Assembly (NCBI GenBank): GCA_030840805.1
Contig: JAVEDU010000081.1
Location: 124,001 to 188,000 of the forward strand
Reading direction: 5' to 3'
DNA: 64,000 nucleotides
From: Actinomycetota bacterium
GTDB lineage: Bacteria; Actinomycetota; Actinomycetes; Mycobacteriales; HKI-0501
Part shown: positions 38,954 to 61,224 of the stretch, piece by piece
How positions within the stretch are numbered: position 1 is the first letter of the stretch
Layout: each line of letters begins with the position of its first letter
The notes under the pieces: model-generated
The model's database searches: none
Told to the model about the DNA's origin: nothing
What the model saw: the letters and a program-made list of their open reading frames with translations, nothing else
Made by a program: the position numbers and the translations under genes

Positions 38954-39127
38954 CTACGCGGCCGTGATGGAGTCGAGCCAGGCGACCACATCCTCCGGCT
39001 TGTACCGCAGATGGCGGCCGATCTGCCGCGCCGGTGGCCCGTACCGCTTGGTCCGCCAGCAGTACAGCGTCTTGACCGGAATCCCCAGATACTCCGACAC
39101 GTCCTCGATGCTCCACAGCTTCGACAT
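38954..39127 (-). CDS. xis: Excisionase / MerR-like HTH protein (Xis)
   Basis: This 57-residue winged-helix protein of the HTH_17 (excisionase) type has MSKLWSIEDVSEYLGIPVKTLYCWRTKRYGPP, then the wing GRHLRYKPEDVVAWLDS. It is encoded immediately upstream of int with a 6-nt gap, so the two are expressed together. It should bend att DNA and direct excision. The ATG follows GAAGGAGCG with suitable spacing. Confidence 0.93.
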   Translation of the reverse strand: MSKLWSIEDVSEYLGIPVKTLYCWRTKRYGPPARQIGRHLRYKPEDVVAWLDSITAA

Positions 39128-39147
39128 CTCTCGCTCCTTCGGTTGGG

Positions 39148-42442: not shown

Positions 42443-42876
42443 GCCGCACCCCGGCACGGGTGCAGGCGGTCCCACTCATCGGCGGCCTCACGCAGCGCCG
42501 TGGTGACCTGGGCGGCGGTCCGGCCGTCGTGGTCGTTCCAGGTCCCGATGATCTCCTCGTAGACGTCGAGGAGTTCGCCGGGATCACCGCGATACCCCGG
42601 GTCGGTGCCGAGGAGATGGCAGGCGAAGAACCGGTAGACCTCTCCGAGCGCCCGCCACTGGGCCTCTGTGGGCTCCGGCCGCCGGATGAGGTCGGCCAGC
42701 GCGCTCCCGTAGGTGGCGATGCACAGCGCACCGGCCGCGCACGCGGGGGGCGTGGGGTTGAGCTCGGCGTGCATCTCGTAGCGGCAACCCTGGTGCCAGC
42801 CATGGGTGTCGATGTGAACGGCGGCGCCGCGGAGCAGCTGCGCCGGGGTGGGGGAGGGGTCGGTGTGCGGTGTCAT
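42439..42876 (-). CDS. DUF6197 family protein, copy 1
   Basis: This 145-residue soluble protein is the first of three tandem paralogues sharing DPSPTPAQLLRGAAVHIDTHGWHQG..., PPACAAGALCIATYG and TWNDHDGRTAAQVTTALREAADEWDR. This fits the DUF6197 family (HGWHQG, AAG/VGA and W-N-D motifs), known mainly from actinobacterial mobile elements. The function is unknown. Its ATG overlaps the stop of copy 2 (TCAT on the plus strand) and its own stop overlaps the HTH gene. Confidence 0.78.
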   Translation of the reverse strand: MTPHTDPSPTPAQLLRGAAVHIDTHGWHQGCRYEMHAELNPTPPACAAGALCIATYGSALADLIRRPEPTEAQWRALGEVYRFFACHLLGTDPGYRGDPGELLDVYEEIIGTWNDHDGRTAAQVTTALREAADEWDRLHPCRGAA

Positions 42877-43322
42877 GCCGCACCGCCGGTGGGGTTGCGC
42901 CGGTCCCACTCGTCGGCGGCGTCCCGCAGTGCCGTGGTGACCTGGGTGATGGTCCGGTCGGCGTGGTCGTTCCAGTCGCCGATGTGCAGTTCGTAGGCGA
43001 CGAGGTGGTCTTCCAGGCGGTCGAGGTCGAGGGGCCGGTCGGTGCCGTCGAGGTGGCCGAGCAGCGCGTGGAGCGCGTCGCGGATGTGGCCGAGGGGGTC
43101 GGTGACGGCGATCATGTCGATCGCGGCAACGGGGAGTCCGCAGCCGGTGATGTAGACGGCGCCGACGGTGCACGCCGGTGGGGTGTCGGGGTTCTCGACG
43201 CGGTTGTAGAGGGCGCCCTGGTGCCAGCCGTGGGCCTCGATGTAGGCGGCGGCGCCGCGGAGCAGGTCGGCCGGGGTCGGTTCGGCACCGACCAGGGTGG
43301 CCGGGACGGCGATAGCGTTCAT
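42873..43322 (-). CDS. DUF6197 family protein, copy 2
   Basis: This 149-residue paralogue shares TPADLLRGAAAYIEAHGWHQG, PPACTVGAVYITG and DWNDHADRTITQVTTALRDAADEWDRRNP with its neighbours. Differences cluster in the middle segment (DLDRLEDHLVAYE), suggesting divergence after tandem duplication. Translation is coupled to copy 1. Confidence 0.78.
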   Translation of the reverse strand: MNAIAVPATLVGAEPTPADLLRGAAAYIEAHGWHQGALYNRVENPDTPPACTVGAVYITGCGLPVAAIDMIAVTDPLGHIRDALHALLGHLDGTDRPLDLDRLEDHLVAYELHIGDWNDHADRTITQVTTALRDAADEWDRRNPTGGAA

Positions 43323-43406
43323 GTGCCCTTCTCCTTCCGAGAGGTTGGTCGGGTGGCTCGGGGACCGCGTTGTCTGCCAGGACGTGGGCGGTCCCCGAGC
43401 GCGGAG

Positions 43407-43880
43407 CTAGTGGACGGACGCGGACGCCGGATCGGCGTCCAGGGCTGCGCGATGGATGCGGTCCCAGTCGTCGGCGGCGGCATGTAGCGCCGCGGTGACC
43501 TCGGCCGGGGTGCGGTCCGGGTCGTCGTTCCAGGTCGTGACGACGGTCTCGGCGTTGCCGTAGGTACCGGCGTCCTCGGCGTCGTCACAGCCGGTGGCCT
43601 CGATCAGGTACGCGGCGAGGAGGTAGAGGGCCGCGCGGGCCGCGGGGGTGGGGTGGAACAGGTCCCCGAGGTCGTGGTCGGGGTGGAAGCCGGTCGTGGA
43701 GGCGGCGAGCATGATGGCCCCGGCGGTGCAGGCGGGCGGGTACGCGGCGTCGGCGGTGGGGTCGTAGTAGCCGCCCTGGTGCCAGCCACGGGTGTGGAGG
43801 TAGTCGGCGGCGGCGCGAAGTCGGTCGGCCGGCGTCGGCGCGGTGTCGGCCGCGGCGGGCGGTATAGCGGTGGTGGTCAT
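43407..43880 (-). CDS. DUF6197 family protein, copy 3
   Basis: This 157-residue, more divergent paralogue has TPADRLRAAADYLHTRGWHQG, PPACTAGAIMLAAS and TWNDDPDRTPAEVTAALHAAADDWDRIH. The 85-nt gap separating it from copy 2 is unusual in this otherwise overlapping operon. The ATG at 43880 follows GGAGAACC. Confidence 0.78.
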   Translation of the reverse strand: MTTTAIPPAAADTAPTPADRLRAAADYLHTRGWHQGGYYDPTADAAYPPACTAGAIMLAASTTGFHPDHDLGDLFHPTPAARAALYLLAAYLIEATGCDDAEDAGTYGNAETVVTTWNDDPDRTPAEVTAALHAAADDWDRIHRAALDADPASASVH

Positions 43881-44188: not shown

Positions 44189-45058
44189 TCAGGCCGCGGC
44201 CGGGGCGGCGGCGGCGATACGCAGGTCGGGCACGCTCAGGTGGTGCCGGATGCGGGTGGCGTAGTCGACGAGGTAGGCGATCTGGTCGTCGGTCAGGTAG
44301 GCGACGCGCAGCTTGCGGGGGGTGCCGCCTTCGGCGATGAGCCAGCCGATGCCGCGGCTGGAGTCGGTGGCCGCGATGGTGTGCGCGGTGTAGCCCTGGG
44401 CGGCCCAGCCGTGGCCCAGGACGATGTCGGAGGAGATGTAGGTGGTGCACCGGAACGCCATCCGGTAGCCGAAGATGTCCCGCAGCGAGGTGGGGATGAT
44501 GTCCACCGACGGGCGTTGGGTGGCGGCGACGACGATCAGGCCGCAGGCCCGGCCCCGGGCCACCAGATCCCGGAGTAGGGCCGAGAACTCTTCCTGGTCG
44601 GCCCGGGTGCCGACGGTGGCGGAGTAGTAGGCGATCTCGTCGACGACCACGACGATGACCGACAGCCGGTCGGTGCGGGTGATCTTGCGGCGCTTGCCGG
44701 CGCGCAACCAGGCGTACCGGTTGTCCATCACCTGCTGGAGCCGCCGCAGGGTAGCGGTGGCGTGGGGGAGGTCGGGGCCGACGAACACGTCGGCGATGTC
44801 CTGCCACAGACCCAGTTCGACGGTCTTGGCATCCAGCAGGCACAGCCGGGTGTCGGTGGCCAGGGCGGCGTGGGCGCAGATGGTGTTCAGCAGCCCGGAC
44901 TTGCCGGCGCCGGGTTCCCCACCGGCGAGCAGGTTGCGGTAGATCAGCGACTCGTAGACCGGAAGGCCGAACTCGTCGACGCCGAGGAACACCGGGTCGA
45001 ACATCGACAGCACCGGACCGACCGGGACCACCGGATCGGCGGGATGGAACGCGGGCAT
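44189..45058 (-). CDS. FtsK/SpoIIIE-type DNA translocase (TraB-like)
   Basis: This 289-residue FtsK-like ATPase has Walker A GGEPGAGKS (46-54), Walker B VIVVVVDEIAYY (about 133-144) and the RecA-like VVAATQRPSVDIIPTSLRD region. TraB-family translocases move double-stranded AICE DNA through the septal wall between mycelial compartments or to a recipient, binding clt sites with a C-terminal winged helix. The winged-helix gamma domain is expected at the C-terminus (DDQIAYLVDYATRIR). Length matches TraSA-type proteins. Confidence 0.9.
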   Translation of the reverse strand: MPAFHPADPVVPVGPVLSMFDPVFLGVDEFGLPVYESLIYRNLLAGGEPGAGKSGLLNTICAHAALATDTRLCLLDAKTVELGLWQDIADVFVGPDLPHATATLRRLQQVMDNRYAWLRAGKRRKITRTDRLSVIVVVVDEIAYYSATVGTRADQEEFSALLRDLVARGRACGLIVVAATQRPSVDIIPTSLRDIFGYRMAFRCTTYISSDIVLGHGWAAQGYTAHTIAATDSSRGIGWLIAEGGTPRKLRVAYLTDDQIAYLVDYATRIRHHLSVPDLRIAAAAPAAA

Positions 45059-46883: not shown

Positions 46884-47008
46884 GGACTATCGCGTCTCCT
46901 ACCGAGGACTTGTCAGTCCTAAGTGTGGGGACGAAGATGTCTCCTGTCAAGGCAGTATGTGTCCCCATCTAGGACATGTCTGTCCCGTTGCGTAGGACCA
47001 CTATGTCC
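46884..47008. promoter_or_regulatory. Array of six GGAC-N6-GTCC-type operators at 21-23 bp spacing
   Basis: Six 14-bp half-palindromes lie in a row: 46884 GGAC-TATCGC-GTCT, 46906 GGAC-TTGTCA-GTCC, 46929 GGAC-GAAGAT-GTCT, 46951 GGCA-GTATGT-GTCC, 46972 GGAC-ATGTCT-GTCC, 46995 GGAC-CACTAT-GTCC. Start-to-start distances are 22, 23, 22, 21 and 23 bp, about two helical turns, so the sites face the same side of DNA. The array separates the SCO3933-type gene and the XRE regulator and overlaps the regulator start. XRE repressor binding is the obvious model. Confidence 0.8.
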
Positions 47009-47635
47009 GCCCATGATCAAGAGATGGAGATGCCCGAAGTGCTTCGCACCAGGCGTACCGAGCTCGGCATGTCACAGGCCGACCTCGCTGCGCAGGTCGG
47101 CGTCGACAAGCGACAGATTCGCCGGTACGAGGCCGGCGAGACCCAGCCGACCCTCGCGGCGGCGAAGGCGATCGCCCAGGCGCTCGGCATCTCGATTGAC
47201 GAGCTGGCCGGTCACGCGTCCCACCGTGTTGAGCTGGGCGGCGACTGGTGGGCGTGCTGGCAGACGTGGAACGAGGGTACGGAGGTCATCAACCCGCACC
47301 AGATCCGGATCACCCAGCGCGGCGACACCCTGGACGTCGTCGCGACGACGCGGGGCACTCCGCTGGACGCAGGCGGCTATCTGTGGCGAGGGGAGATGCG
47401 GATCTTCGACAACGAGGCGGCGATGGGCTGGTACGTCGCCGACGAGGGCGCGGTGCGCTCCAAGGGAACGATGTACTTCACGATCCACCCACACGGCATC
47501 CACATGACCGGGCGGTGGGTCGGCCTCAGCTACGACGGACCGATCGTCAGCGGGTGGGGCGTCATCGCCCGCACCGAGGACGAGGCAGTTGCACTGATGG
47601 ACCAGCTACGCCAGGAGGGAACCGTGAAGACATGA
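47003..47635 (+). CDS. XRE-family regulator with C-terminal sensor-like domain
   Basis: This 210-residue protein has an N-terminal Cro/C1-type HTH (residues 13-68: VLRTRRTELGMSQADLAAQVGVDKRQIRRYEAGETQPT...). A C-terminal beta-rich domain of about 135 residues follows, with regular G-x-W motifs (GGDWWACWQTWNEG; GGYLWRGEMRIFDNEAAMGWY; GTMYFTIHPHGIHMTGRWVGLSYDG). I do not recognise that domain; it looks like a single small barrel that could bind a ligand. The ATG at 47003 has AGGA 6 nt upstream and overlaps the last operator. ATGs at 46976, 47024 and 47030 are alternatives. Confidence 0.85.
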   Translation: MSAHDQEMEMPEVLRTRRTELGMSQADLAAQVGVDKRQIRRYEAGETQPTLAAAKAIAQALGISIDELAGHASHRVELGGDWWACWQTWNEGTEVINPHQIRITQRGDTLDVVATTRGTPLDAGGYLWRGEMRIFDNEAAMGWYVADEGAVRSKGTMYFTIHPHGIHMTGRWVGLSYDGPIVSGWGVIARTEDEAVALMDQLRQEGTVKT

Positions 47636-47967
47636 GCGACGGCGAGGTCTGCGAGGTCATCATCACCGCCGACGACGCAGACTGGCTCGCGGACTTCACT
47701 CGGAAGCTCGTCGAAGAACGGCTCGCTGCATGCGGCCAGAACATCGCATCCATCCGCTCGATCTACCGCTGGAAGGGCAAGGTGCAAGACGAGCCCGAAG
47801 CCCGAGTCGCACTGCACACGCGATGCAATTTGGTTCAGAAGATTGTAGATCGAGCGAACCGTGACCACCCGTACGAGGTTCCTTGCGTGATAGCACTCCC
47901 CGTGAAATACGGAAATACGGAATATATCAACTGGGTCTTAGCTGAAACCGCTGAGGTCGACCGCTAG
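47632..47967 (+). CDS. CutA-like protein (PII-like fold) in AICE cargo
   Basis: This 111-residue protein matches the CutA1 family along its length: EEVIITADDADWLADF-type opening, EERLAACGQNI, SIYRWKGKVQDEPEARVAL (W47 conserved), then RDHPYEVPCVIALPVKYGNTEYINWV. CutA forms PII-like trimers; the name comes from divalent-cation tolerance in E. coli, though in most bacteria the role is unclear. The ATG overlaps the regulator stop (ATGA), so the two are expressed in fixed ratio. A chromosomal-type housekeeping gene in this place is unusual. Confidence 0.9.
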   Translation: MSDGEVCEVIITADDADWLADFTRKLVEERLAACGQNIASIRSIYRWKGKVQDEPEARVALHTRCNLVQKIVDRANRDHPYEVPCVIALPVKYGNTEYINWVLAETAEVDR

Positions 47968-48009
47968 TTCTCAGCTTTTCGTTCGCTTGCTATTCATCCC
48001 GAGGTGAAT

Positions 48010-49650
48010 ATGTCTGTCGACTTCGAACACCTGCCTGAACCAACGTACGCTACCTTGCTATCTGCCTTACTACACCGCATTCACCCCAACGCCGAGATCA
48101 TCGACGGCTCTGGCGGGGATGGCGGCAGAGACGTGCAGGTCTGCGAGAATGGTCGGCTAACCATCTATGAACTCAAGTCTTTTAATGGAAGGCTAGATAG
48201 CAAATCTGGCCGGCGAGCACAGGTAGAGTCATCGTTAAGGGAAGCCGCCCAACACCAGCCAGACGAATGGTTTCTTGTCGTCCCCATCAATCATACTCCC
48301 TCCGAGTTAAAGTGGTTCAACGGGTTGCGGGGCGACTACTCCTTCGTCCAAAGGTGGCGTGAACGAACATGGATCGACGAGCAACTTTCTAAGCATCCGG
48401 ACCTTGTCCGCCACTTCGTAACACATCCGCACACCGAAGTTCTTGACCGCTTGAAAGAACTCAATAGCGAGAAGGCCGTGCTCGCAGGTGGCATCCCGGA
48501 TCTGCTTGCGCGCGTAAAGACCCTGGAGGAACGCGCCGCGGAGATCAGTCCGAACTATGGAATCGAGTTCAACAGCACCCGACTCGGGGTGGAAATCGGA
48601 CTCTTCCCCAAGGGCAGTGCGGTGCAGCCCATCCGTGTAACCCCAGTACTTAAAGAAGGCGAAGACACGAAACGTACTCAGGAAGCACTCTCGCAGGTTC
48701 TGGACTTCGGGGGCAGGATCGAGATACCCGACTCGCACCTCGATGCATTACAGATCGAGGGTGCACCTGAACTAGATCTCGAAAGTGCACTGTCAGGAGA
48801 AGGCACTATCGAGATCGCCTCGATCGACGACGACACGGGGTTCCCCATTACGGCCATGCTGGGCGTGACCGGGCCAACTGGCAAACCAATAGCTCAGCTG
48901 GCCGTTACGCTCACCCACCGGACGTCCGGAAGGCGAGGGAGCATCATCTATGGTACGGACATAACGGGGTACATCCAAATAACAATGCAGACAGACGAAG
49001 CTGCGCAAAAAGTCGGTATCAACCTAACCACCCGCGGGCGCCTCGTCGGAGTGTTGCCAACGACCGTTGCGCCTGCTCTGCACCTTCTGGTAAATCTTGA
49101 GCCCGGCCATACCTCCACTCTCAGAATCGGCGGCCACACTGTCATATCCGAAATACCTAACGGGGCACCCTTTAATAATCTTCGAGATTGGCTCAATCTC
49201 CATGAAGATCTCATTGCGATCCAACGATATTTCAGTACCTACTTCCCGATGCCTGATGTTGGCGTTGATGTTGACGTCATAAATACTATTCGAACCACTC
49301 GAAGGTTGATAGACAACGAGAGTGTCCCCTACTCTAAGGGTCCCGTGACCTTCTCCGTATACCCGGAGAAGGTCGGCGAACTGCTTGAGCTGGTGAAATC
49401 AGACGGTGCGCTACTGATTACCACCGACAACCTGACCGCAAGTATTGGTGACTATGAGATCCCGCTGGGAAAATGTCACTACTATGCTGGTAATACACGC
49501 CTTACCAATAAGGAAGAGTTGCAAAGAACCGCACGAGAAGATCCGGACAATGTGAAGGCAGTGTTCGAAATTCTCGGCGATCAGTCGATCTACCTAACCA
49601 GGGCTCATCCGGACGGCGACGACGCAACCGTTCTAGCGCCACCTCCGTAA
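48010..49650 (+). CDS. PD-(D/E)XK nuclease-domain protein, AICE cargo
   Basis: This 546-residue protein has visibly lower G+C and more A/T-ending codons than its surroundings. The N-terminal ~110 residues read as an Mrr-like restriction-endonuclease fold: alpha-helix LLSALLHRIHP, then IIDGSGGDGGRDVQVCENG...IYELKSF with D41, E54 and K56 as candidate catalytic residues. The rest is unassigned: a helical linker (about 140-185, coiled-coil-like LARVKTLEERAAEI), then mainly beta-rich sequence including PTGKPIAQLAVTLTHRTSGRRGS. No helicase or methylase is encoded nearby. It starts at an ATG with GAGG 5 nt upstream, 42 nt after the CutA-like gene. Confidence 0.75.
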   Translation: MSVDFEHLPEPTYATLLSALLHRIHPNAEIIDGSGGDGGRDVQVCENGRLTIYELKSFNGRLDSKSGRRAQVESSLREAAQHQPDEWFLVVPINHTPSELKWFNGLRGDYSFVQRWRERTWIDEQLSKHPDLVRHFVTHPHTEVLDRLKELNSEKAVLAGGIPDLLARVKTLEERAAEISPNYGIEFNSTRLGVEIGLFPKGSAVQPIRVTPVLKEGEDTKRTQEALSQVLDFGGRIEIPDSHLDALQIEGAPELDLESALSGEGTIEIASIDDDTGFPITAMLGVTGPTGKPIAQLAVTLTHRTSGRRGSIIYGTDITGYIQITMQTDEAAQKVGINLTTRGRLVGVLPTTVAPALHLLVNLEPGHTSTLRIGGHTVISEIPNGAPFNNLRDWLNLHEDLIAIQRYFSTYFPMPDVGVDVDVINTIRTTRRLIDNESVPYSKGPVTFSVYPEKVGELLELVKSDGALLITTDNLTASIGDYEIPLGKCHYYAGNTRLTNKEELQRTAREDPDNVKAVFEILGDQSIYLTRAHPDGDDATVLAPPP

Positions 49651-49676
49651 ATGACAAGTTTCTGTACGTCTTCAAG

Positions 49677-49697
49677 GGCGGCCCCTGCGGGGCCGCC
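49677..49697 (+). terminator. Hairpin after the nuclease gene
   Basis: GGCGGCCCC-TGC-GGGGCCGCC is a perfect 9-bp stem beginning 26 nt after the stop codon. A second inverted repeat, CCGAGGCCGGCCG/CGGCCGGCCTCGG (49709-49721 with 49749-49761), follows. Either could terminate the cargo operon. The interval 49651-49849 has no gene. Confidence 0.6.
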
Positions 49698-49849
49698 GCG
49701 CCCGCCGCCCGAGGCCGGCCGGCTCGCCCTTGCCGCTCCGCTCACGGGCGGCCGGCCTCGGCTGGGCGCGGACACACCGAGGGCCACCGGACGCCGACCA
49801 GCTCGTCGACACCCAGCAGCCACGGACAGGCTGCCGCAGCGACGCGCGG

Positions 49850-50422
49850 CTACCCGAGCCGCTCCGCCATCACGCGGTCCACGGTGGACACATACCCGCG
49901 AAACTCCTCCAGGCTCAGCGACTCGCTCACCTGGACGAAGTGGAGCGACACGGCGTACTGACCGTAACGCGCCCAGTACACCCAGATGCCGCACCGTTCC
50001 GGGTCCGAGTTGCCGCAGAAGAGCTTGTGCGCATCGGCGTGGCGCACCGCGCCGCCCGCGTCCACCTCCTCGCCGCCGCCCCAGTCAGACCGGTACTCCC
50101 ACGCGGGGTCGTCCACGACGTAGTACCAGATCGCCGAGGGGACACCGTCGTACCGCAGGACCTCCTGGGTGAGCGCGGGATGGATCTCGCCCGGGTGCCA
50201 GCTACGCGCGACCTGGTGGTGTGCCACACCCGGCCCCATCGTGGTCACGTGGTCGCGCTCGACGACCCATCGCCCCGGGTCCGTGACGCGGGGCGACGCG
50301 TCTCCGGAGAGCAACAGGGACGCGGTGTCGACGTCCGGCCTGGACTGCACCCGGACGACGGTGACCGCCCCGACGACCAGGACGACGACGACGATCACCA
50401 CCGCCCAGCCGATCCGTCGCAT
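49850..50422 (-). CDS. Membrane-anchored AICE protein of unknown function
   Basis: The 190-residue protein has one N-terminal transmembrane helix (WAVVIVVVVLVVGAVTVV). An extracytoplasmic region follows with two cysteines in LFCGNSDPERCGIWVYW and several Trp/Tyr pairs (IWYYVVDDPAWEYRSDW). The start at the ATG (50422) is set by AGGAGGAG 5 nt upstream. No family recognised. It may be cargo of the element. Confidence 0.65.
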   Translation of the reverse strand: MRRIGWAVVIVVVVLVVGAVTVVRVQSRPDVDTASLLLSGDASPRVTDPGRWVVERDHVTTMGPGVAHHQVARSWHPGEIHPALTQEVLRYDGVPSAIWYYVVDDPAWEYRSDWGGGEEVDAGGAVRHADAHKLFCGNSDPERCGIWVYWARYGQYAVSLHFVQVSESLSLEEFRGYVSTVDRVMAERLG

Positions 50423-51371: not shown

Positions 51372-51407
51372 TCGCAGGGTTAGTGGTTCGAGTCCACTCG
51401 GGGGAGC
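51372..51407 (+). repeat. Right attachment site (36-bp direct repeat copy 2)
   Basis: This is an exact copy of the tRNA-Asn 3'-half block at 37658-37693 (TCGCAGGGTTAGTGG...ACTCGGGGGAGC). The 5' half of the tRNA is absent here, as expected for the distal att site. The flanking DNA beyond it contains a related integrase remnant (51464-51640). Confidence 0.93.
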
Positions 51408-51463
51408 TCCCACCGCAGGTCAGAGGGTGTACACACCCCTCGGAAGACCCCGCCACGCACGGT

Positions 51464-51640
51464 CTACGCACGGGTTTCTCCCTCGGGTCGTGACTCGAAG
51501 AACCGTTCCAGCGCCTCGGCCGCACGTGGGTTGAGCATTCGCCGCGCGAGGTACACGTCCTGCGTCATCGACGGCCGCGCGTGCCCCAGTTGGTCGGCGA
51601 CCGCAGGCGTGGACAGCCCCGCCTCGTGGACGCCGCCATC
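51464..51640 (-). pseudogene. C-terminal remnant of a second tyrosine integrase
   Basis: Minus-strand translation gives EAGLSTPAVADQLGHARPS followed by MTQDVYLARRMLNPRAAEALERFF and a stop at 51466. This aligns with residues 347-389 of the intact AICE integrase with few changes. It includes the H of LGH and the nucleophile Tyr, but the upstream catalytic Arg and HxxR are gone. The gene is thus a fragment from another element once inserted in the same tRNA. Similarity ends near 51635. Confidence 0.85.
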
Positions 51641-51710
51641 GATCAGATGAATCGTCGTTGGCCTGCGGCCGGCATGCCGGTGCGGCAGAGAACCAGGTCG
51701 AGGGAGCGGG

Positions 51711-51748
51711 GAGCGAGCGCCCCCCGGCGGACCGAGGGGCGCTCGCTC
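51711..51748. repeat. Perfect 13-bp hairpin
   Basis: GAGCGAGCGCCCC (51711-51723) pairs with GGGGCGCTCGCTC (51736-51748) over 12 nt. It lies 117 bp beyond the stop of the secreted-peptide gene on the minus strand and could be its terminator. Confidence 0.5.
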
Positions 51749-51864
51749 GCGGCACGGACGTCTCTCGTCACAGCGTTCCGGCCGAACCGGTACGCCCGGG
51801 CCACCACGCGGTGTCCGGCGACCACTGCCGCCGGGCGGCGCGACCGCCCCGTGGCGCGGTACGT

Positions 51865-52158
51865 CTAGACGGTCCCGCAGGCCACCGACCTCACCACGGC
51901 CAGCGTGGCGCCACCGGCGCCATAGGCGGCGCCGGTGGCGATGCCCACCAGGGAGTCGATGAGGCCGCCGAAGACGGGAACCGCCGAGGCGGACGGGAGG
52001 GCCGGGAGCGCGGGGAGTGCCGGAAGCGCCGCGCAGGCCGGGAGTGCCGGGGCTGCCGGGAGTGCCGGGACGATGGCGGCACTGGCCGGGGACTGGCCGG
52101 CGAGGATGAACGCCGAGACGGCGGCGCTCACCAGTCCGAGACGAATGATCCTGATCAT
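51865..52158 (-). CDS. Secreted small Ala/Pro/Leu-rich protein
   Basis: The 97-residue product has a signal peptide (MIRIIRLGLVSAAVSAFILAGQSPASA, cut near AIV). A low-complexity stretch of LPA units follows (LPAAPALPACAALPALPALPALPS), then a Gly/Ala-rich end resembling small exported actinobacterial proteins (GGLIDSLVGIATGAAYGAGG). The RBS GGAGAA lies just before the ATG. The 469-bp gap 52159-52627 before the next feature holds no convincing gene. Confidence 0.65.
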   Translation of the reverse strand: MIRIIRLGLVSAAVSAFILAGQSPASAAIVPALPAAPALPACAALPALPALPALPSASAVPVFGGLIDSLVGIATGAAYGAGGATLAVVRSVACGTV

Positions 52159-52627
52159 CACAGGTTCTCCTTCACTCGGTGCAGGGATGGTTCGGCGCTG
52201 TGCGGGGCTGTGGTCAGCCGGTACGCACGAGGGTGTTCCCGGTGGCCATGCCCGATCAGGTGTCGATGACGGCGCGGGGTGCCGCGGGACGCCTTCGTCG
52301 ACCAAGCAGAACTGGCGGATCCGCACGGCCCCCGGCGCCCGGGGAGGAGATCGCGCCGAGGACACCCGCAACCCGCTGGTGCCACTGTCCACATCGGACC
52401 CGTGCATGCGATCGACCTCGGCTCGTCGAGCATCGCGGATACGTCACCTCACCGAGGACTGGGTAACGACCCCGAACCTACGCCCACGACGCCGCCGGGG
52501 AAACGCCCAAGTGGCGATCTTCGCGAGGCCGGACCCGTGGTCACCGACGGACCGACATGCCCGGTCGCCCACCGGACCCGCGCACGGAGGTGGAGCGCGC
52601 GCGGGCCGCGGACCGCCCGGGCGAAGA

Positions 52628-53127
52628 TCAGCCCGCGAGCAGCGCGTGGAGCTCGGTGCACGAGCTCTCCCGGCCCGCGCGCGCCATGCCGTCCATCTCC
52701 CCGCTGTACGGCCCCTGCCGGATCACCGGTCGGGTCTTGCCGTTCTCGTCGTGGAACTCGGCCCGCAGGGACATCTCGACGGCTCCCTCCGTTCCGGGAT
52801 GCCCTCGACCTTCCCGTTGCCCACGAGCAGCTCGATCTCGACGACCTCGGTGAACGTCGCGTTCACCGAGGTGAGGCTCGGGTCGTCGTCGTTCACCATC
52901 GTGAGCCGCTGGTGGCCGCCGACCCGCGCGTCGATGTCGACGCTCTCGCGGGGCACCGACAAACTCACCGGGCCGAACCACCGCGCGAGCTGGGCGGAGC
53001 CGGTGAACGCCCGGTAGACGAGCTTGCGCGGAGCGTCGAGGACCCGGTTGAGGTCGAGTTCCTCGGAGACGTGCTGTCGGACGTGGCGCTGTTCCTTGCC
53101 TCCACCTGGAGGCGGCGCGAGCGCCAT
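52628..53127 (-). pseudogene. Frameshifted AHSA1/SRPBCC (START-like) gene
   Basis: Two minus-strand reading frames together spell one SRPBCC protein. The first (from the ATG at 53127) has LDLNRVLDAPRKLVYRAFTGSAQLARWFGP... to VEGIPE. The second, in another frame, begins near VEMSLRAEFHDENGKTRPVIRQG and ends at 52628. The frame change falls around 52770-52800. The conserved start (APRKLVYRAFTGSAQLARWFGP) and the C-terminal MDGMARAG segment are recognisable, so a single indel probably inactivated the gene (or reflects a sequencing error). Such genes often pair with ArsR regulators, but none is seen. Confidence 0.75.
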
Positions 53128-53391
53128 GGGACCGTGCGATTTCGCGAGATCAGCCCGAGCACCTTCGGATGCCGCGAGATCGCCGGGAGGCCGATGAGAA
53201 CGGGCCGGGGGTGCGCCAGAGGTCGTCCGGGCCGCCGTCAAGAGGTTCTTCCCGCCGGTCCGGGGGAGGCGCCGGTCCGGCGACGGCCTCGGCGGGACCG
53301 CGACACCGGCGGGACCCGAACAGACGCCGTTCCGGCGGTGACGCGACCGGATCGCCGAGCCGGCCCGGCCCTCTGGGCGACGACTGTCAGG

Positions 53392-54618
53392 TCAGTCGTG
53401 CAGTCGGACGTCGGGGCTCACGCGCGGGACGGGGACGACGGGCACCGCCACCGCGGCCAGGTCCTCCGGCGGCCCGGGCCGGCCGAAGTGCCATCCCTGC
53501 CCGTAGTCGACCCCGAGCGCCAGGAGGGCGGCAGCGTCCAGTTCGGACTCGATGCCCTCGGCGACCACCTTGGCACTGCAGCCGTGTCCGAACTGGACCA
53601 GTGAACCGACCAGCGTCGTCAGCACCGGGTCGGCGTGTACGCCGTCCACGATGCTGCGATCGAGCTTGATGACGTCCGGAGCGGTGAGGACGATGTGGCG
53701 CAGCGAGGAGAACCCGGCGCCGACATCGTCGATCGCGAGCCGCATCCCGCGGGCCCGCAACGGGAAGAGCACGGACGTCAGGGCGTCGTAGTCCTCGACC
53801 TGGTCGTGTTCGGACAGTTCGAGCAGAATGCGGTCCGGCGGCAGGCGGTCCAGGAGCGCCGTGCACTCGGGCGTGAGCAGCGTGGCGGGGGAGACGTTCA
53901 TGGCGATGTAGCCGGAGACGCGGTCGAGGTGGTCGGCGGCGCGTTCGAGGGCGAGCAGCTCCAGGCGATCGCCCTGCCCGACGCTGTGTGCCTCCGCGAA
54001 GCAGACGTCCGGCGCCTTGCCCCACCCGTGGGGGAACCGGCTGAGCGCCTCGGCCCCGACCCGCCCGCCGGTGGCGAGGTCCACGATGGGCTGGAGCACG
54101 ACGAGCGGCCCGCCGGCGGCGAGGACGGGCGCGAGCCGGGTCTCGATCTCGGCCTGCCGCGCGTTCTCCCGCACGCCGGGCTCGAGGATCACCGCGGCGG
54201 CCTGCGCGAGCACCTCCATCAGCGCCTTGTCCCGCTTGGTCAGGCCCTTGTCGGACGTGAGCCCGGCGGCGCAGAACGTGCCGTACAGCGTCCCGTCGCT
54301 CAGCCGGACGGGTACCGAGACGTAGCTGCGGATCCGCGGCAGGCGGGCCGCCGGGAGCTTCATCGCCTCGGGGTACTGCTTCACGTCGGGGATGACCGGG
54401 GGCAGCCGCCCGGCCAGGATCGCCTGGCAGAAGCTGGTCTCCTGGCGCTGGGTGGCGCCCTCTCTGAACAGGAGCGGGACGGCGGAGTCCACCACCTCGA
54501 GATGCTGGGTGGTCCCGTCCAGCCGGCTCAGGAACGCGACGCTGAGGCCGAGCGAGGTCTTGGCGGTGTGGAGCAGCTCCGCGATCTGCTGCTCCGCCTC
54601 CGAGCGGCGCTTCGCCAC
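53392..54618 (-). CDS. GAF-EAL domain c-di-GMP phosphodiesterase
   Basis: This 408-residue soluble protein has an N-terminal GAF domain (about 10-155; RQETSFCQAILAGRLPPVIPDVK, RIRSYVSVPVRLSDGTLYGTFCAAG) and a C-terminal EAL domain (about 165-390). EAL catalytic elements are present: GAEALSRF (the EAL-type E), AMNVSP, LELSEH, IDDVGAGFSSL, VIKLDRSIV, AEGIES and DYGQGWHF. It should therefore hydrolyse c-di-GMP to pGpG, modulated by a GAF ligand. The GTG at 54618 has AAGGAG upstream. No diguanylate cyclase lies nearby. Confidence 0.9.
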   Translation of the reverse strand: MAKRRSEAEQQIAELLHTAKTSLGLSVAFLSRLDGTTQHLEVVDSAVPLLFREGATQRQETSFCQAILAGRLPPVIPDVKQYPEAMKLPAARLPRIRSYVSVPVRLSDGTLYGTFCAAGLTSDKGLTKRDKALMEVLAQAAAVILEPGVRENARQAEIETRLAPVLAAGGPLVVLQPIVDLATGGRVGAEALSRFPHGWGKAPDVCFAEAHSVGQGDRLELLALERAADHLDRVSGYIAMNVSPATLLTPECTALLDRLPPDRILLELSEHDQVEDYDALTSVLFPLRARGMRLAIDDVGAGFSSLRHIVLTAPDVIKLDRSIVDGVHADPVLTTLVGSLVQFGHGCSAKVVAEGIESELDAAALLALGVDYGQGWHFGRPGPPEDLAAVAVPVVPVPRVSPDVRLHD

Positions 54619-54722
54619 GCGCGTCTCCTTCGCTGTGTCGGTACCCGTTCTCCTATCGACAGCGCGGGAGCCGACTTCAGCGTCTGCGGTACGAAACACG
54701 CCGCGGTCCGTGCCCGCGCGGG

Positions 54723-55442
54723 TCAGACGGGGCAGCCGTCCGGGCCGCAGGCCTGACCGGTGTCGCCGGTGCCGATGACCGTGAGCGGGTGGGCCTCCGA
54801 CCAGGCCCGCTGCAGCAGCTCGAGGATCTGCTCGGCCGGCTGCGCGCCGTTGACGCCGTACTTCCGGTCGACGACGAAGAACGGGACACCGCTGATGCCC
54901 AGCCGGGCGGCGTCGGCCTCGTCGGCGCGCACCGCGGCGGCGTACCGCTGCTCGTCGAGGGCGGTACGGACCTCGTCCGCGTCCAGCCCCGCCTCGGCGC
55001 CGAGCCGGGCGAGCGTCTCGCGGTCGCCGACGAGCGCGCCCTCGGTGAAGTACGCCCGCAGCAGTCGCTCCTTGACTGCGTTCTGCACCCCGCGCTCCAG
55101 GCCGAGGTGGATCACCTGGTGGGCGTCGAAGGTGTTCGCGTGCACCGCCCGCTCGAAGTGGAAATCGAGCCCCACGGTGGCGGCCGTCTCGGTCATCTGG
55201 TCGAGCATCTGCTGCGCCGCGCGGGCCGTGGTGCCGTACTTGCTCGCGAGCCGCTCGGCGTAGCCGCTGTCGCCCGCCTCCGCCGGGGTGGTGGCCGACT
55301 CGGCGCCCGGGTCGAGCTCGAAGCTCTTCCACTCGATCACGAGCTGGTCCCGCTGCGGGAACTGGTCCAGCGCGGCCTCGAACCGCCGCTTCCCGATATA
55401 GCACCACGGGCAGACGACGTCGGACCAGATCTCGACCCTCAT
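54723..55442 (-). CDS. DsbA-family oxidoreductase (FrnE-like)
   Basis: This 239-residue thioredoxin-fold protein starts MRVEIWSDVVCPWCYIGKRRFE with the active-site CPWC. It has the helical insert typical of FrnE/HCCA-isomerase-like proteins and the cis-Pro motif ISGVPFFVVDRKYGVNGAQP. The C-terminal tail CGPDGCPV adds a second cysteine pair, as in redox-linked actinobacterial members. No signal peptide is present, so it is cytoplasmic. It is a separate unit from the EAL gene. Confidence 0.9.
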   Translation of the reverse strand: MRVEIWSDVVCPWCYIGKRRFEAALDQFPQRDQLVIEWKSFELDPGAESATTPAEAGDSGYAERLASKYGTTARAAQQMLDQMTETAATVGLDFHFERAVHANTFDAHQVIHLGLERGVQNAVKERLLRAYFTEGALVGDRETLARLGAEAGLDADEVRTALDEQRYAAAVRADEADAARLGISGVPFFVVDRKYGVNGAQPAEQILELLQRAWSEAHPLTVIGTGDTGQACGPDGCPV

Positions 55443-55595
55443 GGGGTACCTCTCCTTCGCGCGGGCGTTCCGAGCGCACAACGCCCGCGATCACTCCGCG
55501 CATTCCGCCGGCCATCCGAGCGGTGACGGGAGCCACGCGTCGATCCCGGGAAAAGGGTGACGCGGGCCCGGTGGCCGGATGGCACGCTGCCCGGC

Positions 55596-56081
55596 ATGAC
55601 GACGGTGCGGCGGCTGGGGGAGCGGGACTGGGCCACCGCGAGGGCCGTCCGGCTGGACGCGCTCGCGGACGCGCCCGCGGCATTCGGCTCGTCGCGGGCC
55701 GGCGAGGCGGCCTTCGAGGACGAGGTGTGGCGATCACGGGTACGCGGCAGCGCCTGGTTCCTCGCCGAGGACGAGGGCGGGCCGGCGGGCGTCGTCACCG
55801 GCTGTGCCGAGCCGGGCGCGCGGCCCGCCGAACGCGCCCTCGTCGGGCTGTGGGTGGCCCCGGACCATCGCGGCCGGGGCGTGGGCGACCAGCTCGTCGC
55901 CGCCGTGACGGAGTGGGCGCGGGGGGAGGGCGCGGACGTCCTGGTGCTGTGGGTGACCGGGTACAACGACGCGGCCCACGGGCTGTACCGCCGGCAGGGC
56001 TTCCGCCCCACCGGCCGTCGCCTACCGCTCCTGAGCAACCCGACCGTGGACCAGGAGCAGTGGGCGCTTCGGCTCGGCTGA
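55596..56081 (+). CDS. GNAT family N-acetyltransferase
   Basis: This 161-residue protein of the GCN5-related fold has LVGLWVAPDHRGRGVGDQLVAAV (the acetyl-CoA-binding motif A, R-G-x-G-x-G/A form) and YNDAAHGLYRRQGFRPTG (motif B). Substrate unknown. The ATG at 55596 gives the usual N-terminal strand (TTVRRLGERDW). It lies divergent from the FrnE-like gene and convergent with the next. Confidence 0.88.
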   Translation: MTTVRRLGERDWATARAVRLDALADAPAAFGSSRAGEAAFEDEVWRSRVRGSAWFLAEDEGGPAGVVTGCAEPGARPAERALVGLWVAPDHRGRGVGDQLVAAVTEWARGEGADVLVLWVTGYNDAAHGLYRRQGFRPTGRRLPLLSNPTVDQEQWALRLG

Positions 56082-56086
56082 GTCCG

Positions 56087-56773
56087 TCAGGCCACCAGCA
56101 CGGGGGAGGCCCAGCCGCTGCCCGAGTGGTCGGCCCAGTTGGCGGTGAGGCTCATCGTGCGCCGGTACCGAACCCAGGCGAGCCCCGGGAGCCGGTGGTC
56201 GGACCGCTCCGGGATCGTGAGGTGGTATCCCGAGAGCCAGATGTAGGGCACCGACCTGCCGTCCATCGCCCGGACCCAGTCCGGGAAGTGCGCCGCCGCG
56301 GCGAGGACCTCGGCGTGGGCGGAGCGCGTGCTCCGGACGTTCCGGGGACGGATGTGTCGTCCCGGCTCCCAGTGCGCGCCGAGGTCGACGGTCACCCGGC
56401 GGACGCCGGGGCGGTGCTCGATGCCGTCGAGGAGCCGTACCGGCTTGGGGTTTTCCTTCCACTCGTCCCACTCCCAGTCGAACGACCAGGCGTGCGGCTG
56501 CTGCTCGGTCGCCAGCCTCCACAGCTCGTGGCAGGTACGGCGGACGCCGTCCAGCTGCCGGGTGCTGTCGAGGTAGACCGCGACGAGGTCCACGACCAGC
56601 GGGTCGTCGTGCTCCCGGGGGGTGAGGTCGACGGCGGCGAGCTCACCCTGCAAGAGCCCCCACTCGCGCTCCTCGTTCCAGCGGCGGACGTTCGCCAGCT
56701 GCTGCTCCAGGGAGACGAACATCTTCTCCGGCGGAGTGGGCTTCGTGAGCGACAGGCGCCTCGGTGTGGACAT
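56087..56773 (-). CDS. Conserved hypothetical protein
   Basis: This 228-residue soluble protein (MSTPRRLSLTKPTPPEKMFVSLEQQLANVRRWNEEREWGLLQGEL...) is rich in Trp/Arg. A central segment (HAWSFDWEWDEWKENPKPVRLLDGIEHRPGVRRVTVDLGAHWEPG) and a C-terminal half with YIWLSGYHLTIPERSDHRL suggest a compact mixed fold. No family is recognised. The ATG at 56773 has GAGGAGG upstream; the GTG at 56779 is less likely. Confidence 0.65.
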   Translation of the reverse strand: MSTPRRLSLTKPTPPEKMFVSLEQQLANVRRWNEEREWGLLQGELAAVDLTPREHDDPLVVDLVAVYLDSTRQLDGVRRTCHELWRLATEQQPHAWSFDWEWDEWKENPKPVRLLDGIEHRPGVRRVTVDLGAHWEPGRHIRPRNVRSTRSAHAEVLAAAAHFPDWVRAMDGRSVPYIWLSGYHLTIPERSDHRLPGLAWVRYRRTMSLTANWADHSGSGWASPVLVA

Positions 56774-56839
56774 GAACACCCTCCTCGATTCCCTCGTGGG
56801 GCCGCACCCACGGTACGTCGGGGGATGGCAGGCTGCGAG

Positions 56840-57271
56840 CTACGGCAGCCGCGGCAGGCCGTCGGGACCGAGCGGGAACCCCGGGTTGTGCGCCACTTCC
56901 CACACGTGGCCGTCGGGATCGGCGAAGTACCCGATGTGCCCGCCCCACGACGCGCCGGCCGGGCGCTTGAGCACGGTGGCGCCGGCCGACTCGGCCTCGG
57001 CGACGGCCAGGTCGACCGCCTCGGGGGTCTCGACGTTGATGGCGAGCGTGACGCCGCGGAATCCGGGTCCCACCGCGGCGAGCGTGCCGCTCTCGATCAC
57101 GAGGTCCTCTTCGCCGAACAGCGCGAGCAGGCCACCGCCGGTGTGGAAGAAACTGACCTCTGCGCTCGACGCCGGCGACAGCGACCAGCCGAGGGCGGAG
57201 TAGAAGGCGGTCGACCGGGGCAGGTCGGTGACGCCCAGGGTCACGAGACTCACGCGCGACGGGACAGCCAT
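56840..57271 (-). CDS. VOC family (glyoxalase-like) protein
   Basis: This 143-residue protein starts with the paired-fold pattern VSLVTLGVTDLPRSTAFYSALGWSLS. It has the family end GHIGYFADPDGHVWEVAHNPGF with a metal-ligand-type His/Glu. Such proteins are small metal-dependent lyases, dioxygenases or resistance proteins; the substrate is unknown. Confidence 0.85.
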   Translation of the reverse strand: MAVPSRVSLVTLGVTDLPRSTAFYSALGWSLSPASSAEVSFFHTGGGLLALFGEEDLVIESGTLAAVGPGFRGVTLAINVETPEAVDLAVAEAESAGATVLKRPAGASWGGHIGYFADPDGHVWEVAHNPGFPLGPDGLPRLP

Positions 57272-57317
57272 GGGGCTCAGGGTCGCACCGTCGTGGCGTT
57301 CGCGCGCCCCCTCGCGA

Positions 57318-58517
57318 TCATCGGACCGCGAGGCGGACGTTCCGTCCCGCGGCGAGCCCGGGCGGCAGGCCCAGCAGGGTGGTCGCGAGCAGGAACACCA
57401 TCGGAGCGGTCCACCCGCCGGTGCCGGTGTACAGCAGGCCCATGACCAGCGGCCCCGCCGCGCCGATCAGATAGCCGCCCGCCTGCGCCATGCTGGACAG
57501 CCGCGCCGCCGCGTCGGAGTCCGGCGCGCGCAGCACCATCAGGAGCAGGGCGAGGCTCAGCGCGGCGCCCTGCGAGATCCCGAACAGCGTCACCCAGACG
57601 AGGGCGGTGCTCGTCGGGGCGAGCCAGATGCCCAGGACGCCCACGGTCGCGGTCGCGACCGTGGCCGCCACCGCGACGCGCTGGTCCCTCATGCGCTCGG
57701 CCACCGTCGGCGCGACGAGATTGCCGAGCAGACCGGTGAGGTTCATGACCATGAGCAGGAAACCGGCCTGGGCCTCGTCCACGCCCCGGTCGGTGTAGAA
57801 CGCCGGGAGCCAGGACAGGCAGGCGTAGTAGATCAGCGTCACCAGGCCCATGAACGCCATCACGTTCCAGGCGAGGGCGTCCCGCCAGAGCGACCGAGGC
57901 CGGGCGGTACCGGTCTCGGCCTCGGCGGGGCCGACCCGCAACTGCGGGAGCCACGCGAGGAGGGCGACCGCCGCGGGGATCCCCCACACGGCCAGCGCCC
58001 ACGTCGTGCTGTCGTCGGCGGCGTGCAGCACCGGCACCGTGACGCCCGCCGCGAGCGAGGCGCCCACGGTGATCGCCATCGTGTACGCGGCCATCATCGC
58101 CCCGACCCGGTTCGGGAAGCGGTGCTTGATGAGGCTGGGGATGAGGACGTTCAGCACCGCGACCGCGAACCCGCCGACGATCGTCCCGGCGAACAGCGCC
58201 CACTCGGGGCTCACCGCGCGCAGCAGCAGGCCGACGAGCAGTCCCGCCATCAGGCCGAAGACGGCGCGCTCCTCGCCGAACCGTCGCCGCAGCGCGGGGC
58301 CGGCGAGTGCGCCGATCGCGAAGCACAGCACCGGGATCGTGACGAGCAACGAGGCCGCGGCGCCGCCGAGATCGAGCCGTTCCAGAAGCGGCGGTACGCC
58401 GGCGACGGCCTGGCGCATCGTGTGGGCGACCAGCACCACGCCGGCGGCGGACAGGGCGAACGCGGGTACGGCGACGGCGGTGCGCGTCCGCTGCGGGTCC
58501 TCGACCGACGATGTCAT
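57318..58517 (-). CDS. MFS transporter (CynX/NimT-like)
   Basis: This 399-residue transporter has about 12 hydrophobic segments and the CynX/NimT-type pattern (FALSAAGVVLVAHTMRQAVAGVPPLLERLDLGGAAASLLVTIPVL; RFGEERAVFGLMAG between TM2 and TM3). Subfamily members import cyanate, nitroimidazole or other small anions; the substrate is open. It is divergent from the monooxygenase operon across a 352-bp gap. Confidence 0.87.
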   Translation of the reverse strand: MTSSVEDPQRTRTAVAVPAFALSAAGVVLVAHTMRQAVAGVPPLLERLDLGGAAASLLVTIPVLCFAIGALAGPALRRRFGEERAVFGLMAGLLVGLLLRAVSPEWALFAGTIVGGFAVAVLNVLIPSLIKHRFPNRVGAMMAAYTMAITVGASLAAGVTVPVLHAADDSTTWALAVWGIPAAVALLAWLPQLRVGPAEAETGTARPRSLWRDALAWNVMAFMGLVTLIYYACLSWLPAFYTDRGVDEAQAGFLLMVMNLTGLLGNLVAPTVAERMRDQRVAVAATVATATVGVLGIWLAPTSTALVWVTLFGISQGAALSLALLLMVLRAPDSDAAARLSSMAQAGGYLIGAAGPLVMGLLYTGTGGWTAPMVFLLATTLLGLPPGLAAGRNVRLAVR

Positions 58518-58731
58518 GACGTGCCTTTCCTCAGGGACCCGGACGGGTCGGGGCGTGCCGGAACCCGGCGCGCACGGCGCCGAGTCCTCACCTCGCGGAT
58601 CCCCCGCCGGGGATACTGCCCCACCCGGAACGGCAGGTCCAGCACCGGGTGAACAGCGCGTTCGCGGGCCGTGAGCAGGACAAACACGACTATCTCCGCA
58701 ACCCGCCGAACCCCTTGCTGTGAGCTTCGCC

Positions 58732-58770
58732 ACTGAAGTACGGTCCCGCCTTACTGAAGCAGCACTGAAG
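58732..58770. promoter_or_regulatory. ACTGAAG repeats upstream of the monooxygenase operon
   Basis: ACTGAAG occurs at 58732, 58753 and 58764; start distances of 21 and 11 bp equal two turns and one turn of DNA. The repeats lie in the 352-bp intergenic region (58518-58869), about 100 bp before the monooxygenase start. This suggests an activator or repressor site for the divergent genes. No other feature was seen in that gap. Confidence 0.45.
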
Positions 58771-58869
58771 TTTTGCTCGGCGTTGGTTCAGCGTGCCGCA
58801 CCGTGAGGCGTCGGCGCAGGCGTATCGCCCGGACGGTCCACATCGGACGGGCGGAGACGGGAGAGTGCT

Positions 58870-60003
58870 GTGGCCAAGCAACGACACGCCGAGATCGCGG
58901 GCGCCGGGCTCGCGGGATTGACGGTCGCGTCCGTCCTCGCCCAGAGCGGCTGGACGGTCCGGGTGCACGAGAAGGGCGCCGAGCTCCGCGAGATCGGCGC
59001 CGGCATCTTCCTCTGGGAGAACGCACTGCGGGCCCTGGAGTCGATCGGCGCGTACGACGCGGTGACGTCCACCGCGGAACGGGTGCAGAGCCCCGAGCTG
59101 CGCGACCACCGCAACCGCCTGCTGCAGCGCGAGTGGCTGCGGCACGGTCGCCTGTTCACGGTCGCCCGCCGTCACCTGCACAAGTCGCTCGTGGAGAACG
59201 CTCTCGCCTCCGGTGTGGAGATCCAGACGAACTCCGCGGTGGCCGGGGCGACCCCGGCGGGTGCCCTGCAGCTCGCGGACGGCACCGTGCACGAGGCGGA
59301 CCTGGTCATCGGCGCGGACGGCGTGTACTCGAAGGTCCGCGATTCGCTGGGCCTGGCCAAGTCCGTGCGCGACCTGGGGGACGGCTGCGGCCGGCACCTG
59401 ATCCCGCGTACCGCCGACGACCCGGTCGGCACCACGTACGAGGCGTGGAGCGGCGGGCGGCGGATCGGCGTCGTCCCGTGCTCGCCGGAGGAGACGTACA
59501 TCTTCCTGTGCTGCCCCGAGTCCGATGTGGATGGCACCGACCAGAAGCCGTTCAACCGGCAGACCTGGGTGGACACGTTCCCGGACTTCCGCTCGCAGCT
59601 CGAGCGCATCCCGGACGACGGCGAGGGCCGGTGGGCGTCCTTCTACGACGTCGAGGCGTTCGCCTGGCACAAGGGGAAGGTCGCGATCCTCGGCGATGCC
59701 GCCCACGCGATGTCCCCGAACCTCGGCCAGGCCGCCTGCGTCGCGATGACGAACGCGGTCGCGCTCGGGCAGGCGCTGAAGGTGCACGACGTGGACCGTG
59801 CGCTGGACGTCTGGCAGGAGAGCGAGCGCCCGATGGTCACCCGCGTCCAGCGGTACTCCCGGTTCTACGGCCGGGTCGGCACCCGCTGGCCGTCCAACCT
59901 GCTCGACGTGCGCTCCGGCTTCATCTGGGCTCTCGGCAAGTCCGCTCCGGTACAGAAGCGGATCAACTTCGCCGCCGAGTACTTCCCGTCCATCACCCGC
60001 TAG
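58870..60003 (+). CDS. FAD-dependent aromatic-type monooxygenase
   Basis: This 377-residue flavoprotein of the PHBH-like class has the N-terminal dinucleotide motif AEIAGAGLAGLTVASVLAQ (GxGxxG) and the second FAD-binding motif VAILGDAAHAMSPNLGQAACVAMTNAVAL. The middle ADLVIGADGVYSKVR is the class-A motif DG. Such enzymes hydroxylate aromatic or heterocyclic rings using NAD(P)H. It heads a catabolic operon with a binding protein, amidohydrolase and ABC ATPase, which hints at an N-heterocycle or amide substrate. Start GTG with GGGAG upstream. Confidence 0.88.
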   Translation: MAKQRHAEIAGAGLAGLTVASVLAQSGWTVRVHEKGAELREIGAGIFLWENALRALESIGAYDAVTSTAERVQSPELRDHRNRLLQREWLRHGRLFTVARRHLHKSLVENALASGVEIQTNSAVAGATPAGALQLADGTVHEADLVIGADGVYSKVRDSLGLAKSVRDLGDGCGRHLIPRTADDPVGTTYEAWSGGRRIGVVPCSPEETYIFLCCPESDVDGTDQKPFNRQTWVDTFPDFRSQLERIPDDGEGRWASFYDVEAFAWHKGKVAILGDAAHAMSPNLGQAACVAMTNAVALGQALKVHDVDRALDVWQESERPMVTRVQRYSRFYGRVGTRWPSNLLDVRSGFIWALGKSAPVQKRINFAAEYFPSITR

Positions 60004-60040
60004 GCCCCGCCGTTCACCCCCAGGAAGGTCGGATCACGCC

Positions 60041-61198
60041 ATGGCACGACGTAGCAGACTGATGGGCGCCACCGGTGCCCTGTTCTCCCTCGTGGCCCTC
60101 GCCGCGTGCGGCAGCTCGGGCGGTGGCTCGAAGACGGCCGTCGCAGACGAGACCGCCGACTGGACCATCCCGGCCACGTTCATCGACTGTCAGGCGAAGG
60201 GGATCGAGCGCGGCTGTATCGGCAAGGGCGTGGAGGACACGTACACGCCGCTGGCCAAGTCCGACCTCACCAAGCCGTGGAAGATCTGCGTCACGGTGCC
60301 CCACCTCAAGGACGAGATCTGGGTGGCGGTGAACTACGGCGTCACCGCCGAGAGCCGCCGTCTCGGGGTGGACATGCAGTTCCACGACGCCGGCGGGTAC
60401 ACCGAGGTGACCAACCAGGTCAGCCAGATCGAGAACTGCGTCTCCGACGGCGCCGACGCGATCATCATCGGCGCGATCAGCCAGGACTCCCTGAACCCGG
60501 CGCTCGACGCGGCCGTCGCCAAGGGCGTCGTCGTGATCGACGCGGGCAACGGCGTGACGTCCGAGAAGGTCCAGGGCCGCGCGGTCGTCGACTACTACGA
60601 CATGGGCAAGGCCGTCGGGGACAACCTCGTCGCGCAGGGCAAGCCCATGCGCGTGGCTCTCCTGCCCGGTCCGGCGGGCGCGGGCTGGGCCGAGCGGTCC
60701 GCCAAGGGCTTCAAGGACGCCGTCGCCGACAGCTCCGTCAAGATCGTCGACACGAAGTACGGCGAGACGGGCAAGGAGGTCCAGCTCCGGCTGGTCGAGG
60801 ACACCCTGGCGAGCCACAAGGACCTCGACGCGCTCGTCGGCACCGCGGTGACGGTGGATGTCGCGCAGACCGTGCTTGCCGAGCGTGGGCAGACCGACAA
60901 GGTCAGCCTGTACGGCACGTACATCAACCCCACCACGCTCGAGCTGATCAAGGGCGGTCGGGCGGTCTGTGCCCCGACCGAGCAGCCGGTGATGACGTTC
61001 CGGATCGCGGTCGACAACGCGGTGCGGCTGCTGGAGAAGAAGCCCATCAAGGAGGGCTACGAGCGCAACTCTCCGAAGCCGCTGCTGGCCTGCGGTGAGA
61101 AGGCGGGCGACGCGGCGAACCTCGACACGTTCGACGCGTCGACCAGCTTCGCGCCCAAGGGCTGGAAGCCGGTGACGACCGTCAAGCCCAGCAAGTAA
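60041..61198 (+). CDS. Periplasmic-type substrate-binding lipoprotein (sugar/TorT-like)
   Basis: This 385-residue lipoprotein has lipobox ALAAC (Cys23) and a sugar-binding-type type 1 PBP fold (AVNYGVTAESRRLGVDMQFHDAGGYTEVTNQVSQIENCVSDGADAIIIGAI; AAVAKGVVVIDAGN; VALLPGPAGAGWAERSAKGFKDAV). It is most like TMAO-sensing TorT and related receptors rather than classic ribose binders. It is encoded 37 nt after the monooxygenase and before an amidohydrolase and a ribose-type ATPase, so it is probably the receptor of that ABC importer. Confidence 0.87.
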   Translation: MARRSRLMGATGALFSLVALAACGSSGGGSKTAVADETADWTIPATFIDCQAKGIERGCIGKGVEDTYTPLAKSDLTKPWKICVTVPHLKDEIWVAVNYGVTAESRRLGVDMQFHDAGGYTEVTNQVSQIENCVSDGADAIIIGAISQDSLNPALDAAVAKGVVVIDAGNGVTSEKVQGRAVVDYYDMGKAVGDNLVAQGKPMRVALLPGPAGAGWAERSAKGFKDAVADSSVKIVDTKYGETGKEVQLRLVEDTLASHKDLDALVGTAVTVDVAQTVLAERGQTDKVSLYGTYINPTTLELIKGGRAVCAPTEQPVMTFRIAVDNAVRLLEKKPIKEGYERNSPKPLLACGEKAGDAANLDTFDASTSFAPKGWKPVTTVKPSK

Positions 61199-61224
61199 TC
61201 CCCCCAGTTCGAGGAGAGGCCTGC

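Follow-up and report, generated by a model that had tools for sequence, protein, structure and literature searches.

An integrase C-terminal stub outside attR points to a probable second, lost AICE-like element at the same tRNA-Asn

The integrated element described here lies within a 64,000-nucleotide stretch of DNA, referred to below as the window. It occupies a tRNA-Asn gene downstream of dnaG and is bounded by an exact 36-bp repeat, and its principal features are the following:

33424-36648, ORF in which the DnaG domains were found
37620-37693, + strand, tRNA-Asn(gtt), downstream of dnaG, the integration target (ARAGORN)
37658-37693, + strand, left att core (attL), 36 bp, exact repeat at the 3' end of the tRNA-Asn
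37757-38947, - strand, live tyrosine integrase of 396 aa, C-terminus toward the tRNA (Pfam Phage_integrase, E 5.6e-16)
39148-40740, - strand, RepSA replication initiator of the pSAM2 type, present AICE (PF20199, E 2.6e-147)
44189-45058, - strand, FtsK/SpoIIIE-like (TraB-type) ORF, present AICE, with partial gene limits (PHROG 1358, E 2.5e-42)
51372-51407, + strand, right att core, attR of the present AICE, 36/36 identical to attL, read too as the putative left core of a lost sister element

On its gene content, the element between the cores is classed as an AICE, because a tyrosine integrase, an Xis-like HTH, RepSA and an FtsK-like gene make up the AICE gene set. The tyrosine integrase adjoins an att site in the 3' end of a tRNA gene, the replication initiator is of the AICE type (RepSA), and the ORF at 44189-45058 is a transfer gene of the FtsK/SpoIIIE type. 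An HTH_17 domain was found at the end of the ORF at 38954-40543, between both att cores, and this domain appears Xis-like, with a putative excisionase role.

Other features of the AICE include a lower-GC block (56-63%) at 47000-50000, in which the ORF at 48004-49650 has a weak match (E 1.7e-8) to a candidate defence family, PDC-M58A. Within the AICE ORFs at 42439-43849, stretches of 88-138 nt occur as three diverged direct copies, the last of which falls in an ORF with a DUF6197 match.

Just beyond the right att site, the sequence-only reading had reported a remnant integrase C-terminus in the orientation of the live gene, and this remnant was recovered in the following setting:

51408-51463, + strand, arm of 56 nt between the core and the stop of the stub, by its position the putative integrase-side arm of the lost element
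51464-51630, - strand, integrase C-terminal stub, the last ~49-55 residues, with a TAG stop at 51464-51466 and a homology break at 51630
51631-51864, no strand assigned, no integrase homology past the break by sequence comparison, with a strong hairpin inside
51865-52158, - strand, gene for a small secreted peptide, has paralogues on other contigs and is left outside the lost element

The segment 51504-51630 is a copy, in direct orientation, of 37788-37914, with 87% DNA identity over 127 nt, and in a tblastn search of the window with the live integrase as query the stub gave 42/56 identical residues (E 4e-19) over residues 338-389. The runner-up match in the window had an E of 0.69, and chance is therefore excluded for the stub. 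The strand and the side of the core are those of the live integrase, and the frame of the stub is open through to its TAG stop, which stands 56 nt from the core versus 63 nt for the live gene (stop at 37757-37759), in agreement with the claim that the two end at about the same position.

The limits of the remnant had been drawn too generously: it is real, but clean homology covers 51504-51630, or 51464-51630 with the diverged tail and the stop, and does not extend to 51640. The loss of the N-terminal part is likewise borne out, although it comes to ~345 of the 396 residues, exceeding the two-thirds originally proposed, and leaves 167 nt of coding sequence. Two local scoring schemes place the sharp end of the homology at 51630, and just before this break the residues differ from the family C-termini that were compared. 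Of the motifs conserved in tyrosine recombinases, LGH and the tyrosine of DVY are kept in the stub, and the HxxR box is gone.

Judging by their substitutions, the stub and the live integrase are cousins rather than original and copy. Over 41 codons, a small sample, 10 of the codon differences are synonymous and 4 non-synonymous (dN 0.046, dS 0.477). Of the 16 changed bases, 11 are in third positions, and the four altered residues include three that fall within the eight codons nearest the break. As the changes are mostly synonymous, both genes would have been coding through most of their divergence, and the stub probably lost its coding function late. Among the compared loci, the live integrase is the nearest to the stub at comparable length, followed at 77-78% by Jiangella muralis (L048) and by an integrase on contig C52 of the same genome, while shorter matches elsewhere can exceed these values, e.g., 94% over 50 nt. 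The C52 integrase is 64% identical and sits by a tRNA-Lys.

In 56 of the 80 named loci of this integrase family, a tRNA gene is found on the opposite strand 47-194 bp past the C-terminal match of the integrase, in a sample gathered partly by conserved C-terminal motifs, which would under-count relics with only the N-terminus. The stub thus sits where the integrase of a second element would end, and, as expected of an accretion scar, a second integrase of the same kind abuts the shared core in the same orientation. Very probably, the stub is the att-proximal integrase end of a second AICE-like element which shared the site and was then deleted, whichever of the two was inserted first. In this model, an AICE-like element with a close-cousin integrase would have used the same 36-bp core in the tRNA-Asn, and the two elements would have lain side by side at this gene by accretion, the core at 51372-51407 serving at once as the right-hand boundary of the present AICE and the left-hand boundary of the lost element. 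A deletion may subsequently have removed nearly all of the lost element, its other att core included, and spared the 56-nt arm and the 167 nt of integrase coding sequence. The part attributable to the lost element with some confidence is confined to 51408-51630.

Some observations count against this model. A third, degenerate copy of the core, which had been suggested as a check, was sought in 51408-64000 (with 50 shuffles of that stretch), C81:105001-125000 and C81:185001-225000, where C81 is the contig of the window. Only two copies of the 36-bp core occur in the 4.46 Mb genome at up to 3 mismatches, and nothing above 22/36 was seen in 51408-64000 or in the next 37 kb, the maximum of the shuffles also being 22. 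The outer end of the lost element is, accordingly, not seen, and the third att core that would bound the second element of a tandem array, or of a cis-mobilizable one, is absent. A core-like match of 20/36 near C81:224.9 kb was set aside, as it resembles the end of another tRNA and not that of tRNA-Asn. The genome has no second RepSA gene, and nothing more of the lost element was recognised rightward of the stub. Finally, the arm at 51408-51463 has no significant similarity to the live arm: the global alignment of 51408-51503 with 37694-37787 scored -6.5, against -12.8 for the shuffles (sd 4.3, maximum 1.0).

The sequence-only reading had proposed that the older of two related elements decayed at this tRNA-Asn, and that the present AICE inserted between it and the tRNA. 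The sharing of the site by two related elements holds up well, but the order of insertion is unreadable from the geometry, because the final map is the same whichever of the shared cores received the later element. It is therefore also conceivable, though rather unlikely in our estimate, that the present AICE came first and that the sister was inserted later, at its attR, and then deleted. The dN/dS of ~0.1 would fit this order, as it indicates that the stub stopped coding late, and nothing direct opposes it, although an intact element is usually taken as the younger one. The term "older" comes from the decay of the lost element, while the substitution pattern suggests that coding in the stub ceased late.

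On the other hand, the stub may have arisen through illegitimate recombination or the partial duplication of the live integrase, with no second element ever present here. The survival of just 167 nt, with no other part of a second element in view, would suit such an origin, but at 87% identity, and with mostly synonymous changes, the stub cannot be a recent copy of the live gene, and the exact orientation and spacing of the stub relative to an intact core would have to be a coincidence, which makes this origin highly improbable.

The sequence up to about 53.2 kb, with the secreted peptide and a frameshifted SRPBCC gene, had also been regarded as a possible leftover of the old element, and this part of the proposal was not upheld. 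Three other contigs carry paralogues of the secreted-peptide gene (C87 at two places, C4 and C50), so that it belongs to a gene family of this genome and is no remnant of the lost element. At the DNA level, 51631-53400 matched only these paralogues, with no match to an integrase-family locus or to the present AICE. A GC-rich, strong hairpin at ~51711-51748 lies between the stub and the peptide gene, downstream of the latter, and is possibly its terminator. The SRPBCC gene is likely broken, perhaps by a frameshift: in one frame its AHSA1 match spans positions 1-72 of the 125 in the profile, and the neighbouring frame has no match.

Further to the right, EAL, FrnE, GNAT, VOC, MFS and other flank genes found no match (E 1e-6) downstream of dnaG at 40 loci from 39 genomes, a search in which four of the loci gave less than 2.3 kb of sequence and the query for SBP was out of frame. 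Of seven relatives, 7, 6 and 4 carry a homologue of EAL, FrnE and VOC, respectively, at other places, and none at these dnaG-tRNA-Asn stretches, so the right flank (51.6-66 kb) may or may not be of host origin. This lack of conserved gene order in relatives could be taken to mean that the stub and the genes rightward to 53 kb or beyond form one decayed element which is still mobile in cis with the AICE. There is little chance of this, however, since no third core lies within ~50 kb to the right of attR to provide for composite excision, and the peptide gene is multi-copy in its own genome.

Beyond the window, an integrase (L036, 5220-6467) follows a tRNA-Met, and an exact 51-bp repeat of the end of this tRNA lies 47.5 kb further on. 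A second, larger integrated element thus seems to adjoin at tRNA-Met (C81:190068-237608, window ~66068-113608).

The refuting condition set for the proposal, i.e., a remnant conserved at this place in strains that never carried the element, was looked for in relatives at the level of family or order. The search covered 101 genomes, namely the window's own, two of the same family and 98 of the same order, with none of the same genus, and hence with no true empty site among them, which also counts against the accretion model. From the 40 loci of 39 genomes, 24 dnaG-tRNA-Asn loci served as the control set. A full or nearly full family integrase lies within 3 kb in nine of these and none does in 15, and a lone C-terminal stub was present at 0/24 within up to 3 kb of the tRNA-Asn, two of the 15 integrase-free loci offering only 84 and 1,468 bp to view. 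No integrase piece was found outside attR, over up to 1 kb, at any of 16 named family loci with a recognised attR (15 with at least 500 bp, one with 52 bp). By the evidence of these family- and order-level relatives, the stub is not general to the locus, the empty site of the strain itself being another matter. That the stub belongs to the normal host locus or to the family attB, present in strains that were never invaded, has no supporting point and, given the 0/24 and 0/16 counts, is scarcely credible.

As for orientation, the family integrases at tRNA-Asn read toward the tRNA in the window and in three relatives (L142, L147, L163), and away from it in six others (L145, L146, L151, L152, L153, L159).

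Other observations concern the integrase family at large. An in-frame insert of ~80 residues is found in the catalytic domain, before the HxxR box, in four integrases (from Kribbella and Knoellia), and possibly in L065:

L063, 10001-11416, insert-bearing integrase
L068, 10001-11398, insert-bearing integrase
L077, 10001-11242, insert-bearing integrase
L086, 10001-11416, insert-bearing integrase

In both of the integrases tested, L063 and L086, the insert matches an Xre-type HTH domain (HTH_31); we know of no integrase architecture with such an insert in the catalytic domain. In Kribbella steppae (L077), three separate integrase pieces lie within 10 kb, perhaps at another site of serial insertion. 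A further decayed integrase C-terminus (L179, C95:53310-53354; tblastn E 0.007) has a stop in place of the tyrosine, with no tRNA in the 12 kb examined around it.

The accretion of two cousin AICEs at one site, as proposed for this tRNA-Asn, would add a case to those on record, and it illustrates how small the remnant of a lost element can be and still be readable. The att-proximal C-terminus of the integrase, which persists both here and in Jiangella asiatica (below), may in this respect serve as an inexpensive marker by which earlier insertions at tRNA sites could be counted. It is just imaginable, though very unlikely, that attR is a hybrid site, with the AICE's own arm on the left and the integrase-side arm of the lost element on the right. 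If so, excision would leave an attL-like tRNA site rather than a clean attB, and the ease with which the AICE leaves and returns could change in favour of its retention.

A search of viral contigs returned no match to the exact junction pattern, and the relatives of the integrase found there were seven, with 34-41% identity. The same layout, arisen independently, is seen in Jiangella asiatica (L067, NZ_SMKZ01000013.1), where the end of the tRNA-Asn recurs perfectly over 46 bp, ~8 kb away. Directly outside this repeat is a family integrase without its N-terminal ~100 residues; a stop precedes it closely, and its own stop stands 58 nt from the repeat. Both sites thus have an N-truncated family integrase immediately external to a perfect att copy of the tRNA-Asn. 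They differ in that the inner element of J. asiatica, between the repeats, has an unrelated integrase (23% identity), and in that 285 residues of the outer integrase remain. In another genome (G026), two exact copies of the tRNA-Asn end lie 4 kb apart, and between them is a truncated family integrase (residues 206-391). The att-side end of the integrase tends to persist, as seen in these two cases, although detection also favours the C-terminus, which is the part most easily recognised.

Among the systems already known, one of the closest is that of Frankia, where the tandem AICEs Fean5518 and Fean5534 have closely related integrases, share one tRNA-Lys gene and excise singly or together, and arrays with a common integrase and site are described as unstable (PMC3218068). 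As here, two AICEs with closely related integrases belong to one tRNA gene, but both are whole in Frankia, whereas one of the present pair is a 167-nt stub without an outer core. In a Streptomyces population, accretion is described at tRNA-Arg, with several elements and a remnant at one tRNA, and decayed sites which keep partial integrases (PMC9513070). The likeness lies in these remnants and partial integrases; the difference is that direct repeats flank the decayed remnants in Streptomyces, where empty sites also exist, whereas the tRNA-Asn studied here lacks an outer repeat and an empty site of the same genus. AICE accretion is already described (PMC3218068, PMC9513070), and the present case is a further and more decayed instance of it.
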